Shown here one piece after another: positions 8,164 to 13,816 of a DNA stretch of 46,153 bases; position 1 is the first letter of the stretch; each line of letters starts with the position of its first letter. This DNA is from Actinomycetota bacterium (lineage in GTDB: Bacteria; Actinomycetota; Geothermincolia; Geothermincolales; RBG-13-55-18): the NCBI GenBank assembly GCA_013178005.1, contig JABLXL010000027.1, forward strand, positions 1 to 46,153, given 5' to 3'. The position numbers and the translations under genes are program-made. The notes under the pieces were generated by a model. It was not told where the DNA came from. It did no database searches and saw only the letters and a program-made list of their open reading frames with translations.

Positions 8164-8478
8164 TTAATATCTAAATCTCTTCTTTAGGTTTACTTTTCTT
8201 GCCGTTATTCTCTTTACTTCCCCCACCCCTACCCTCAACAGTCCCTCTTTTATTTTTTTCTCCCGGTAATGCAGGTCTTGAGCGATCGCGTGTGAATCCA
8301 CTGCCACGTGAAGGACGTCCCCCTCCAGTCGGTAGGGGGCGGTTTTTTTACAGATATCTTCTCCCACTATCAAAGGCCATTCCTTGTGGATCCGTAGTAG
8401 GAGGTTTAATTCCGTAAGCCCCTCCTCGCTCAACATGTCCTCCATCGCCTTCCCGATATCACGCATTCTTTCCCTCAC
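8164..8478 (-). CDS. DUF721 protein, DciA-type helicase operator candidate
   Basis: The 104-residue protein has the DUF721 layout: a helical N-terminus, then LLLRIHKEWPLIVGEDICKKTAPYRL, the signature hydrophobic segment DVLHVAVDSHAIAQDLHYRE, and a basic tail. Members of this family include DciA, which assists loading of the replicative helicase DnaB where DnaC/DnaI are absent. Its position between recF and gyrB is typical of actinobacteria. GTG 8478 overlaps the recF stop as GTGA, so the two are translationally coupled. The function is inferred from family and location. Confidence 0.82.
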   Translation of the reverse strand: MRERMRDIGKAMEDMLSEEGLTELNLLLRIHKEWPLIVGEDICKKTAPYRLEGDVLHVAVDSHAIAQDLHYREKKIKEGLLRVGVGEVKRITARKVNLKKRFRY

Positions 8479-10847: not shown

Positions 10848-12191
10848 CTACCCCTGCTTAACAAGATTGGTGAGTTTCTGGACAGCGTCGTATATATCCC
10901 TTTTTTCCTCCATCAATTTTTTTATTTTCTCAACGGAATGTATAGTGGTCGAATGATGCCTGCCCCCGAACGCGTCGCTTATAACGGGAAGAGAAGCATC
11001 GGTGAGTTCGCGGCATAAATACATACATATCTGCCTGGCGATGACCAACTGGCGCGAACGGTTCGGACTGGTCAGTTGGGAAACGGAGAGGTTGAAGTAA
11101 TCAGCAGTGGTTTTCATAATGTGGTCGATGGTTATAGTTCGTTGCTCTTCAGCCGGGAGAATGTCCCGCAGGACCTCTTTTGCGAGTTCAAGGGAAAGGG
11201 GCTCCTTGGTGAGGTTGGAATAAGCGACCACCCTTATTAACGCCCCCTCGAGCTCCCTAATATTGGACACAAACTTGGAGGCGATAAAATCTATAACCTC
11301 ATCCGGAACCTCCTTTTTATCTAGAGAAGATTTTTTTCGAAGAATCGCTATTCTCGTCTCGAGTTCTGGTGGCTGGATATCAGTTGTCAAACCCCACTTA
11401 AAGCGCGAAATGAGGCGATCCTGAAGACCGGCTATATCCTCTGGGGGGCGGTCGCTACTCAAAACAATCTGCTTGTTGTTGTTGTATAACTCATTGAAGG
11501 TGTGAAAGAATTCCTCAAGAGTTTTTTCTTTATTGGCGAGGAACTGAACATCGTCAATTAAAAGCATGTCAATAGAACGGTATTTCCTCTGGAAAGACGA
11601 GGTTCTTCCAGAGGAAAGGGCATTTATAAAATCGTTTAAAAACTGCTCGGAGCTTCTATATATAACCTTAAAGCCGGGATATAGCTTTTTGGTGTAATGA
11701 CCTATGGAATGGAGAAGGTGAGTTTTACCCAGGCCCACCCCTCCGTATATATAAAGGGGGTTGTAACAAGTAGGATTTTCGGAAACCGAGAGGGCGGCTG
11801 CATGGGCAAAACGGTTGCTCGATCCTATAACAAACGTTTCAAACGTGAACCTCGGGTTAAGGTCACCACCCTCTTCCGAACCCTCTTCTTCCGCGAGGAT
11901 ATTGACGTCGAGATAAACGGGATCCCGGCCAGGTTTTTTTCTACGATCCTTGAGGATTATCTTTACCTCTTCGACGCCGGGAAACACCTCCGATGCCACA
12001 CGCCGCAAGAGCCCAATATATCTCTTGTCAACCCATTCCTTGGTGAAGGTGTTGTTTGTGTATATGACAAGGGTGGAACCATCAACCTTATCGAAATAGA
12101 TATTCTTGAACCACATGGACGAGGAATCTGGCACCTGGTCCTGCAGTTTTACCATGTATTTTTCCCACAAGAGATCGGTTTTCTGTACCAT
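10848..12191 (-). CDS. dnaA: Chromosomal replication initiator DnaA
   Basis: DnaA binds DnaA boxes, melts the origin and recruits the helicase. At 447 residues it has all four domains. The AAA+ domain has Walker A YGGVGLGKTHLLHSIG and Walker B MLLIDDVQFLA. Domain IV carries the DnaA signature, SRQLVIARQICMYLCRELTD followed by FGGRHHSTTIHS. ATG 12191 is preceded by GGGGAT. The gene lies 48 bases downstream of the GHKL/winged-helix gene and reads away from the likely oriC. Confidence 0.98.
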   Translation of the reverse strand: MVQKTDLLWEKYMVKLQDQVPDSSSMWFKNIYFDKVDGSTLVIYTNNTFTKEWVDKRYIGLLRRVASEVFPGVEEVKIILKDRRKKPGRDPVYLDVNILAEEEGSEEGGDLNPRFTFETFVIGSSNRFAHAAALSVSENPTCYNPLYIYGGVGLGKTHLLHSIGHYTKKLYPGFKVIYRSSEQFLNDFINALSSGRTSSFQRKYRSIDMLLIDDVQFLANKEKTLEEFFHTFNELYNNNKQIVLSSDRPPEDIAGLQDRLISRFKWGLTTDIQPPELETRIAILRKKSSLDKKEVPDEVIDFIASKFVSNIRELEGALIRVVAYSNLTKEPLSLELAKEVLRDILPAEEQRTITIDHIMKTTADYFNLSVSQLTSPNRSRQLVIARQICMYLCRELTDASLPVISDAFGGRHHSTTIHSVEKIKKLMEEKRDIYDAVQKLTNLVKQG

Positions 12192-12239: not shown

Positions 12240-12974
12240 TTACAGCGACAGAAGCCTCTGCAAGTACGACTTTCCGGCAACGGAAAGGAATCTTTTTCCA
12301 GTTGACGTGATGTCCACCAGCCCCAGTTCCTGCAAGCGAACGAGTTCGCGGTGAGCCGTACCCACGCTTACGTTGAGCTCGGAAGATATCTGAGAGGGCC
12401 CCATCAGCACGCCCTCGGAGAGCAGAAATAGAATGTTGTTCTGGCGCTGGGACAGGTTGTAAACATCGACGCCCCCAACATGGTGCGATGAGGATGGAGA
12501 GAGGATGAGACGAGCAAAAGTGGCTTTTCCGGGCATGGAGTCAAGCACCAGGTCTCCCCCAAGGGATCGAAGCTCCTCAAGAGCGAGGTTAAGTCCAATG
12601 CCGACGCCACGGATGATCCTGCGTTGAAGGTCGTTGGCGGTAGTAAAACCCATCTCAAAGGCGATATCCGTTCGGTCTATGCCGGTGCCGGTGTCGCACA
12701 CGGAGATGGCGCCATAAGAGGGGTCGACAACAACAGAGGCGTTGCAGGGGATCGCATGCACGAGGTTTTCGAGCACCTCTCGTATGGCGAGCGAGGGAAA
12801 GGGTATGCCCGACGAGGATACGTTCTCCTCGACGAGGCCGGAAACATGGCTAACGAAAGACAAAAAATCGTTCTCCGCGATGGAATGAATGACAAAACCC
12901 CCTTCCCCATCAGGCAACGCGACCCGAGTCGGGGGCGGCGTTAACGACCCCTGCACGTCTCCGCGGGAGGACAT
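12240..12974 (-). CDS. GHKL ATPase fused to winged-helix DNA-binding domain
   Basis: I do not recognise a named family. Residues ~55-160 form a GHKL ATPase: N box REVLENLVHA (E67, N70), G1 box CDTGTGID (D94), GFTTAND, and G2 box RGVGIGLNLALEELRSLGG. There is no phospho-acceptor histidine domain, so it is not a standard kinase. Residues ~172-240 are a winged helix-turn-helix of MarR/ArsR type (LSQRQNNILFLLSEG, GPSQISSELNVSVGTAHREL). ATG 12974 with GAAAGG eight bases upstream is preferred over GTG 12983. Encoded between oriC and dnaA in the dnaA direction, it may bind DNA in an ATP-dependent way and affect dnaA expression or origin firing. That is inference. Confidence 0.85.
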   Translation of the reverse strand: MSSRGDVQGSLTPPPTRVALPDGEGGFVIHSIAENDFLSFVSHVSGLVEENVSSSGIPFPSLAIREVLENLVHAIPCNASVVVDPSYGAISVCDTGTGIDRTDIAFEMGFTTANDLQRRIIRGVGIGLNLALEELRSLGGDLVLDSMPGKATFARLILSPSSSHHVGGVDVYNLSQRQNNILFLLSEGVLMGPSQISSELNVSVGTAHRELVRLQELGLVDITSTGKRFLSVAGKSYLQRLLSL

Positions 12975-13627
12975 TTTCCACACCTTTCAAAGTATTCCGG
13001 GAAAGCGCAGGAAACGCGGCTGGAAAGGATGAAAGGGGCGAAAAGCTGCGAAAGATTATACACAGCGCGCCGGCGCGAACGGCGGTGGATTGCTGGGAGA
13101 ATGGCATACGCGGCAAGTAAGAGAATTCTAAAAAACAGCCATTTTACCAGGCAATACATTAGTTTATCCACAATAATTTCCACAGATGTTGATAAACATG
13201 CAGGCAACGAAACACATAACCGACTCGGCCATTATAACAGCGATTATAACAGCGCTCCACACCAATGGCCACGCCCAAAAAGAAACCCGCCCGACGCACC
13301 ATAGAGGGAGGGCATGAAAAGGGGTGGAAAGCGGCAAAGAAAACACACCTAAGAAAAGGGAAAAAGATAATGAATAAATCGCAACGCGCAAAGGACGACT
13401 AGAGCGATAAGGAGAGATAGGGGCAAAATCGATCCATGGCGGCGCTACGGAAACCATAAGAACGGAAACGCACAGAGTGAAGAATGGCACAAAAGCCGTT
13501 TCCACCGAAGAGAGGCCGGAAGATCCCGACCACGGATGCAATCAAGACTCGACACACTGTATGGTGCTGACATGGACCTCCGGGCAGGAAGGGACCTCCT
13601 TCACCAGGGAATCGACCCCGCGTTTTC
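12975..13627. other. oriC: Probable chromosomal origin of replication (oriC)
   Basis: This 650-base gap separates the leftward dnaA block from the rightward rpmH block. It holds DnaA boxes TTATACACA at 13056-13064, TTATCCACA at 13164-13172 and inverse TGTTGATAA at 13187-13195, plus a weaker TTTTCCACA at 12974-12982. An AT-rich stretch at 13123-13200 surrounds the second and third boxes. A tandem 12-mer follows at 13231-13254. Strand switching of nearly all genes at this point supports a bidirectional origin. No gene can be supported inside it. Confidence 0.75.
13231..13254. repeat. Tandem 12-mer inside oriC
   Basis: ATTATAACAGCG occurs twice without interruption (13231-13242 and 13243-13254), 36 bases beyond the last DnaA box. 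Short AT-containing tandem repeats next to DnaA boxes are typical of duplex-unwinding elements. Its role here is inferred. Confidence 0.6.
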
Positions 13628-13656
13628 TTGACACCCCAAAAGGCCGTGGATATAAT
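13628..13656 (+). promoter_or_regulatory. Perfect sigma-70 promoter of rpmH
   Basis: TTGACA at 13628-13633 and TATAAT at 13651-13656 are both exact consensus hexamers with an optimal 17-base spacer. The rpmH ATG lies 26 bases past the -10 box, leaving a very short leader with GGAGGTAG as ribosome-binding site at 13672-13679. Confidence 0.92.
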
Positions 13657-13681
13657 CTTTATGCTTTACCTGGAGGTAGAA

Positions 13682-13816
13682 ATGAAAAGGACGTATCAAC
13701 CGAATACCAGAAAAAGGAAGAAGAACCACGGCTTCAGAAAGCGCATGAGTACCCGGGCCGGAAGGGCGATAATCAAGAGGCGCAGGCTTAAGGGAAGGAA
13801 AAGGGTGAGCGCCTGA
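13682..13816 (+). CDS. rpmH: Ribosomal protein bL34
   Basis: The 44-residue, strongly basic protein has the bL34 signature: [20 protein letters not shown] followed by [20 protein letters not shown]. The start ATG 13682 is fixed by this N-terminus and by GGAGG just upstream. It is the first gene of the rpmH-rnpA-yidD-yidC-jag run. Confidence 0.99.

Follow-up and report, generated by a model that had tools for sequence, protein, structure and literature searches.

A family of genes that each encode a GHKL ATPase domain followed by a predicted winged helix appears to form a conserved leader of the dnaA operon in Actinomycetota, and this position is, as far as we can tell, its new feature. Of 396 genomes sampled from this phylum, 157 had a match to a profile built from 16 members. 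In the window (the whole stretch of 46,153 nucleotides that was analyzed), the gene lies at positions 12240 to 12974 on the minus strand, stop codon included, and encodes 244 amino acids from an ATG; dnaA (10848 to 12191, minus strand) is the next gene downstream, 48 nt away. From the anatomy of the protein and its genomic context we infer a regulatory function, and we lean toward an ATP-dependent DNA-binding regulator, encoded at the head of the dnaA operon, that acts on that operon and/or on oriC.

Gene and genomic neighborhood

An alternative in-frame GTG start is present at 12983, nine bases upstream of the ATG; the sister loci begin at the ATG position in the start-site comparison. On the far side of the gene, from 13682 on, rpmH, rnpA, yidD, and yidC run in the opposite direction, and oriC was placed between the gene and rpmH. 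The cumulative GC skew of the window is lowest near 10.6 kb, in agreement with the presence of an origin. The preliminary description had put the gene between oriC and dnaA, and the coordinates of dnaA together with the DnaA-box matches in the intergenic region bear this out. Among the window's open reading frames, neither a receiver-like gene nor a sigma or anti-anti-sigma gene adjoined it. Farther along, downstream of recF, is a 104-amino-acid open reading frame (8164 to 8478, minus strand) that presumably resembles the DUF721/DciA helicase-loader family.

Distribution and position beside dnaA

The gene was nearly always present once per genome in the profile search of the 396 genomes, for which a cutoff of 1e-14 was used; the best match in each positive genome reached 2e-38 or better, and no dispersed ortholog was found at this cutoff. 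In the 16 homologous loci, dnaA was directly downstream on the same strand in every case, and rpmH was on the far side in 14, the fetched stretch ending first in the other two. Loci from diverged families showed the same flanking by rpmH (20 of 20).

The 157 positive genomes comprise the window's own genome, 13 close relatives studied as loci, and 143 searched for dnaA. Coordinates were listed for 136 of these 143 (G122, G191, G260, G270, G318, G323, and G379 were left out), in sets of 80 and 56 genomes, with G032, G034, and G035 counted both in the 80-genome set and among the 16 loci. The two genes were scored as adjacent if they shared a contig and strand and their matched parts were −60 to 2,500 bases apart, which was the case in 73/80 and 49/56 genomes, or 122/136. 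The large gaps in families f19, f26, and f41 arise because the matched parts mostly omit the linker, the winged helix, and the start of DnaA. In seven further genomes, dnaA starts a contig and the GHKL-winged-helix gene is the last on the same contig, which stops 18 to 732 bases after the match to this gene, so that the two genes meet once the chromosome is closed. The gene is thus directly upstream of dnaA in 129 of the 136 genomes. The remaining seven are uninformative, with dnaA on another contig (G202, G235, G264, G284, and G292) or without a dnaA match (G301 and G327), and no genome among the 136 separates the two genes on one contig in any other way. The dnaA match of G034 (C39:17447-18799) contains one in-frame TAA, in a genome that is 98% complete.

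These genes, which directly precede dnaA on its own strand and have the oriC region on the opposite side, constitute a candidate family of dnaA-linked regulators. The preliminary description had asked whether the gene is conserved beside dnaA in relatives and took random positions there as grounds for abandoning its proposal; the 16 loci and the 129 adjacent genomes, with seven uninformative, show that the gene is not scattered. This placement supports a tie to dnaA or oriC. The same adjacency could also be left over from an old operon and have no functional meaning.

Inheritance and loss

On a DnaA tree of 77 loci, the presence and absence of the gene required 5 changes, against approximately 23 in shuffles. 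The tree was a quick one that carried long-branch warnings, and L064, which has no DnaA, was left out. Distances between GHKL-winged-helix proteins correlated with those between the corresponding DnaA proteins (r = 0.72; permutation maximum, 0.18). These patterns are consistent with vertical inheritance and a few losses, although the root and the long branches of the tree leave gain versus loss open. In genome G006, a 99%-complete member of the window's family, rpmH, oriC, and dnaA follow one another cleanly and the gene is missing; G016 and G017 have the same plain arrangement, and the sampled sister families f3 to f7 also lack the gene. Its absence in G006, G016, and G017 indicates that the gene is dispensable over evolution. 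In 28 dnaA loci of profile-negative genomes, no open reading frame of at least 40 codons matched the profile, with the exception of one at an E value of 0.023.

Domain architecture and predicted fold

The GHKL (HATPase_c) domain spans residues 16 to 158 (12501 to 12929, minus strand) and contains N, G1, PGxSTA-like, and G2 boxes; the predicted winged-helix DNA-binding domain, drawn from Pfam and the structural model, spans residues 174 to 244 (12243 to 12455, minus strand). Pfam matched HATPase_c at residues 62 to 158 of the 244-residue protein (4e-9) and both HTH_11 and HTH_5 at residues 177 to 228, and an NCBIfam scan gave sub-threshold partial matches only. All 16 aligned members, whose alignment supplies the residue numbering used here, had a Pfam match to the HATPase_c superfamily, and 14, 12, and 8 of them matched IclR, ArsR, and MarR, respectively. 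Residues E66, N70, and H73 of the N box, D94, G96, and G98 of the G1 box, and G123 and G127 of the G2 box were invariant in this alignment, and the E, N, H, D, and G columns of the GHKL site were kept in 50 of 50 members of a wider one. In the recognition helix, R209 was found in 47 of the 50 and T in 43. One homolog, L014 (G011 C179, 1501 to 2192), is interrupted by a frame break close to residue 190 and was excluded from the 16-member alignment; the break reflects either an error in the draft genome sequence or decay of the copy.

No HisKA-type domain was found by Pfam in the window protein at E values up to 10, and none of the 16 members had a DHp/HisKA-type match at E values up to 0.01. 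Three structural claims of the preliminary description, namely, intact ATP-binding boxes, an attached winged helix, and the lack of a histidine phospho-acceptor domain, stand.

An AlphaFold2 model made with the 16-sequence alignment (mean pLDDT, 86) places a winged helix after a GHKL fold; confidence is low for residues 1 to 8 and for the interdomain linker (residues 160 to 170). The top rank of a Foldseek search with this model was taken by histidine kinases. Among the structures listed by VIA-align, the best partners of residues 12 to 162 were 3lmm (Z score, 14.5) and SpoIIAB (Z score, 13.9), and those of residues 169 to 244 were MarR-type winged helices (Z scores, 12 to 13). The boxes and the Bergerat-type fold of the model place the N-terminal part in the GHKL superfamily, and the modeled helix-turn-helix plus wing, with its conserved recognition helix, places the C-terminal part among the MarR/IclR/ArsR-like winged helices as a predicted DNA binder. 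The defining feature of sensor histidine kinases, a DHp domain with a phospho-acceptor histidine, was not detected in the sequence. Members from f19, f26, and f41 (L095 to L102), which may be Coriobacteriia, have a Pro/Gln/Ala-rich interdomain linker of tens to more than 150 residues and an altered recognition helix, and they are found beside a strongly diverged DnaA.

DnaA boxes, promoter, and translation start

The window contains seven matches to the DnaA-box consensus TTWTNCACA in 46 kb, three of them within 12974 to 13172. One of these, TTATACACA (13056 to 13064), is 90 nt upstream of the gene, and a match at −89 to −93 was found in 7 of 16 upstream regions. A cluster of DnaA-box-like 9-mers at 13164 to 13196, consisting of TTATCCACA (13164 to 13172) and an inverted pair, is presumed to be the oriC core. 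With one mismatch allowed, the core words TTWTCAACA/CTGTGGA were present in 13 of 13 upstream regions.

Two TATAAT −10 elements on the minus strand, at 13231 to 13236 and 13243 to 13248, lie upstream of the DnaA boxes and are likely to mark the operon promoter. Of 13 upstream regions from the window's own family and order, all but that of L015 had an exact TATAAT on the strand of the gene, located between −262 and −291. The three nearest gene-less loci had none in this region, and in these loci −10-like words adjoin dnaA. A two-hexamer scan put a promoter at 13271 to 13243 with 10 of 12 matches, and the region held 4 such sites versus 1.2 expected. With a promoter upstream of the DnaA boxes, a single transcript would probably cross oriC into the GHKL-winged-helix gene and dnaA.

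A 9-mer search of 13 upstream regions revealed no operator private to gene-bearing loci among the words shown; those conserved were promoter, DnaA-box core, and ribosome-site words and one pyrimidine-rich word. The inverted TCAACA/TGTGGA core was not assigned to the GHKL-winged-helix protein because it is also present in the gene-less loci L067 to L069. Six loci (L006, L007, L008, L011, L012, and L013) share the word CCCCTTAAYC, in L013 as the variant CTCTTTAATC, approximately 20 to 30 nt upstream of TATAAT in the −35 region. It is possible that this word, which was not seen in the window's own genus, is a −35 variant or an operator. An Rfam search over 12900 to 13800 gave no match at gathering scores.

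The DnaA-box-like string TTTTCCACA that had been reported to overlap the start codon is present at 12974 to 12982. It is part of a region at 12974 to 12988 (minus strand), GAAAGGTG followed by TGGAAA-ATG, and seems better read as a translation-initiation sequence consisting of a ribosome site and spacer. Of 16 upstream regions, that of the window alone has a consensus DnaA-box match at the start codon, and relatives have there a Shine-Dalgarno-like AAGGAGTGG or AAGGNGGTGAAA, or AAAGGAGTGGAAAATG. Since the match is confined to one region, the string was not taken as evidence for the control by DnaA at which the preliminary description had hinted and was rejected as the main control site. For such control, the DnaA boxes that lie 90 and about 200 nt upstream make better candidate sites.

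Possible function

If the protein is an ATP-dependent regulator of the dnaA operon, transcription would begin ahead of the DnaA boxes of oriC, at the TATAAT elements, and run through oriC into the GHKL-winged-helix gene and dnaA. The protein would then bind DNA in the promoter and oriC region, its dimer state or its affinity for DNA would switch when the GHKL domain binds or turns over ATP, and dnaA expression and/or access to oriC would be adjusted by ATP or cell state. The intact GHKL site, the conserved recognition helix, the lack of a phospho-acceptor domain, and the near-invariant place of the gene, features read from sequence or the model, point in this direction, and a role in regulating replication initiation is plausible. 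Against it stand the observations that no operator specific to gene-bearing loci was found, that the box core occurs in gene-less loci as well, that the gene is absent from G006 and f3 to f7, and that the recognition helix is altered in f19, f26, and f41.

It is rather unlikely, though worth weighing, that the GHKL domain instead binds or serine-phosphorylates DnaA or another partner, as SpoIIAB and BCK/PDK act on theirs, with the winged helix only docking at the origin or dimerizing. The closest GHKL folds in VIA-align were 3lmm (DIP2311; Z score, 14.5), SpoIIAB (Z scores, 12.5 to 13.9), and PDK/BCK (Z score, approximately 12), and in all 50 members of this family, which is coinherited with DnaA, the N-box Asn is preceded at a distance of four residues by a Glu that is the catalytic residue of PDK and SpoIIAB. 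However, histidine-kinase CA domains score better by sequence and lead the Foldseek ranking, and the conservation of the recognition helix speaks for a DNA-binding protein. We assign a similarly small probability to a one-component regulator of genes elsewhere that rides in the rpmH-oriC-dnaA cluster by operon inertia. The widely kept gene order of the dnaA region, the losses in G006, G016, and G017 without visible change to dnaA, and the lack of a private operator upstream of the gene are in keeping with this explanation, but a regulator under no constraint should have changed place at least sometimes, and all 129 located copies precede dnaA, in many families with a diverged DnaA and with no dispersed ortholog at 1e-14. 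It is the missing private operator, together with the gene losses, that keeps both of these explanations alive. Very improbable is an orphan or degenerate histidine-kinase remnant whose ATP domain works with a response regulator or phosphotransfer partner from another locus: the sequence matches are mainly to histidine-kinase CA domains, but none of the 16 members has a DHp/HisKA match, the protein is not decaying, as all 50 members retain the ATP boxes, and no receiver-like gene adjoins it.

Should the protein indeed be a regulator of dnaA or oriC, a wider and more tentative idea is that it represents an ancient class of initiation regulators in deep Actinomycetota, an ATP-gated GHKL-winged-helix switch that is cotranscribed with DnaA, binds oriC, and couples ATP or growth state to firing. 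The deep-branch carriers presumably include host-associated lineages, if our guess at their identity is right, and we know of no DnaA regulator of this kind in those branches.

Relationship to known proteins

Hda, YabA, SirA, and Soj are among the regulators of dnaA or DnaA. DnaA autoregulation, SeqA, Fis, and IciA are named in PMC8203912. The GHKL-winged-helix protein would share with these its expected target, dnaA expression or oriC, and Pfam and NCBIfam scans revealed no relation to any of them. According to PMC5720831, many bacteria have no identified homologs of known DnaA regulators, and little is settled about how replication initiation is controlled in bacteria other than E. coli, Bacillus, and Caulobacter. 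A single-copy gene for a putative ATP- and DNA-binding protein beside dnaA in 157 of 396 genomes offers a concrete gene and DNA fragment to study. Action on dnaA or oriC would make the protein an initiation regulator of the GHKL type; if it has no such action, the fixed place of its gene still calls for an explanation. To our knowledge, no known regulator of dnaA or DnaA is a GHKL protein or the leader of a dnaA operon. Full-text searches of one library of open-licence papers listed no description of the gene, which may have been mentioned in other publications.

Neither GHKL domains nor winged helices are new in themselves, and the example of 3lmm suggests that the two are paired in other proteins as well. 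This structure, which is DIP2311 of Corynebacterium diphtheriae, of the AlbA_2/HATPase_c_4/wHTH proteins, was the best structural match to the GHKL part (147 residues, root mean square deviation of 3.1, and 12% identity in VIA-align), and the Foldseek alignment between 3lmm_D and the 244-residue model spans 261 columns. The window protein differs in having no Pfam match to AlbA_2 or HATPase_c_4, and its GHKL part begins at about residue 16, which leaves no room for an N-terminal AlbA_2 domain; it is thus not an AlbA_2/HATPase_c_4 regulator, and we know of no protein of that type that sits at dnaA. SpoIIAB/RsbW resembles the protein in having a GHKL fold without DHp (root mean square deviation of 2.7 over 128 residues, 20% identity; profile match, 2.8e-5), but SpoIIAB binds sigma-F as a stand-alone domain, whereas the protein described here carries a winged helix. 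Likeness to histidine-kinase CA domains and the P4 domain of CheA is seen in the N, G1, and G2 boxes, in profile matches to CheA, and in the lid motif GFTTA/PGYSTA, to which that of CheA is similar; unlike sensor histidine kinases, the protein has no DHp, sensor, or receiver domain. The C-terminal domain aligns with MarR in the same range of Z scores given above but, in contrast to winged helices of the MarR/IclR type, is fused behind a GHKL ATPase.

A Bacteroidota match, L037 (E value, 4e-9; 30% identity), covers residues 35 to 179 only and was set aside as generic GHKL similarity; none of the window's neighbor proteins was found beside it. A tblastn search of plasmids returned only three Agrobacterium GHKL matches, with 52% coverage.
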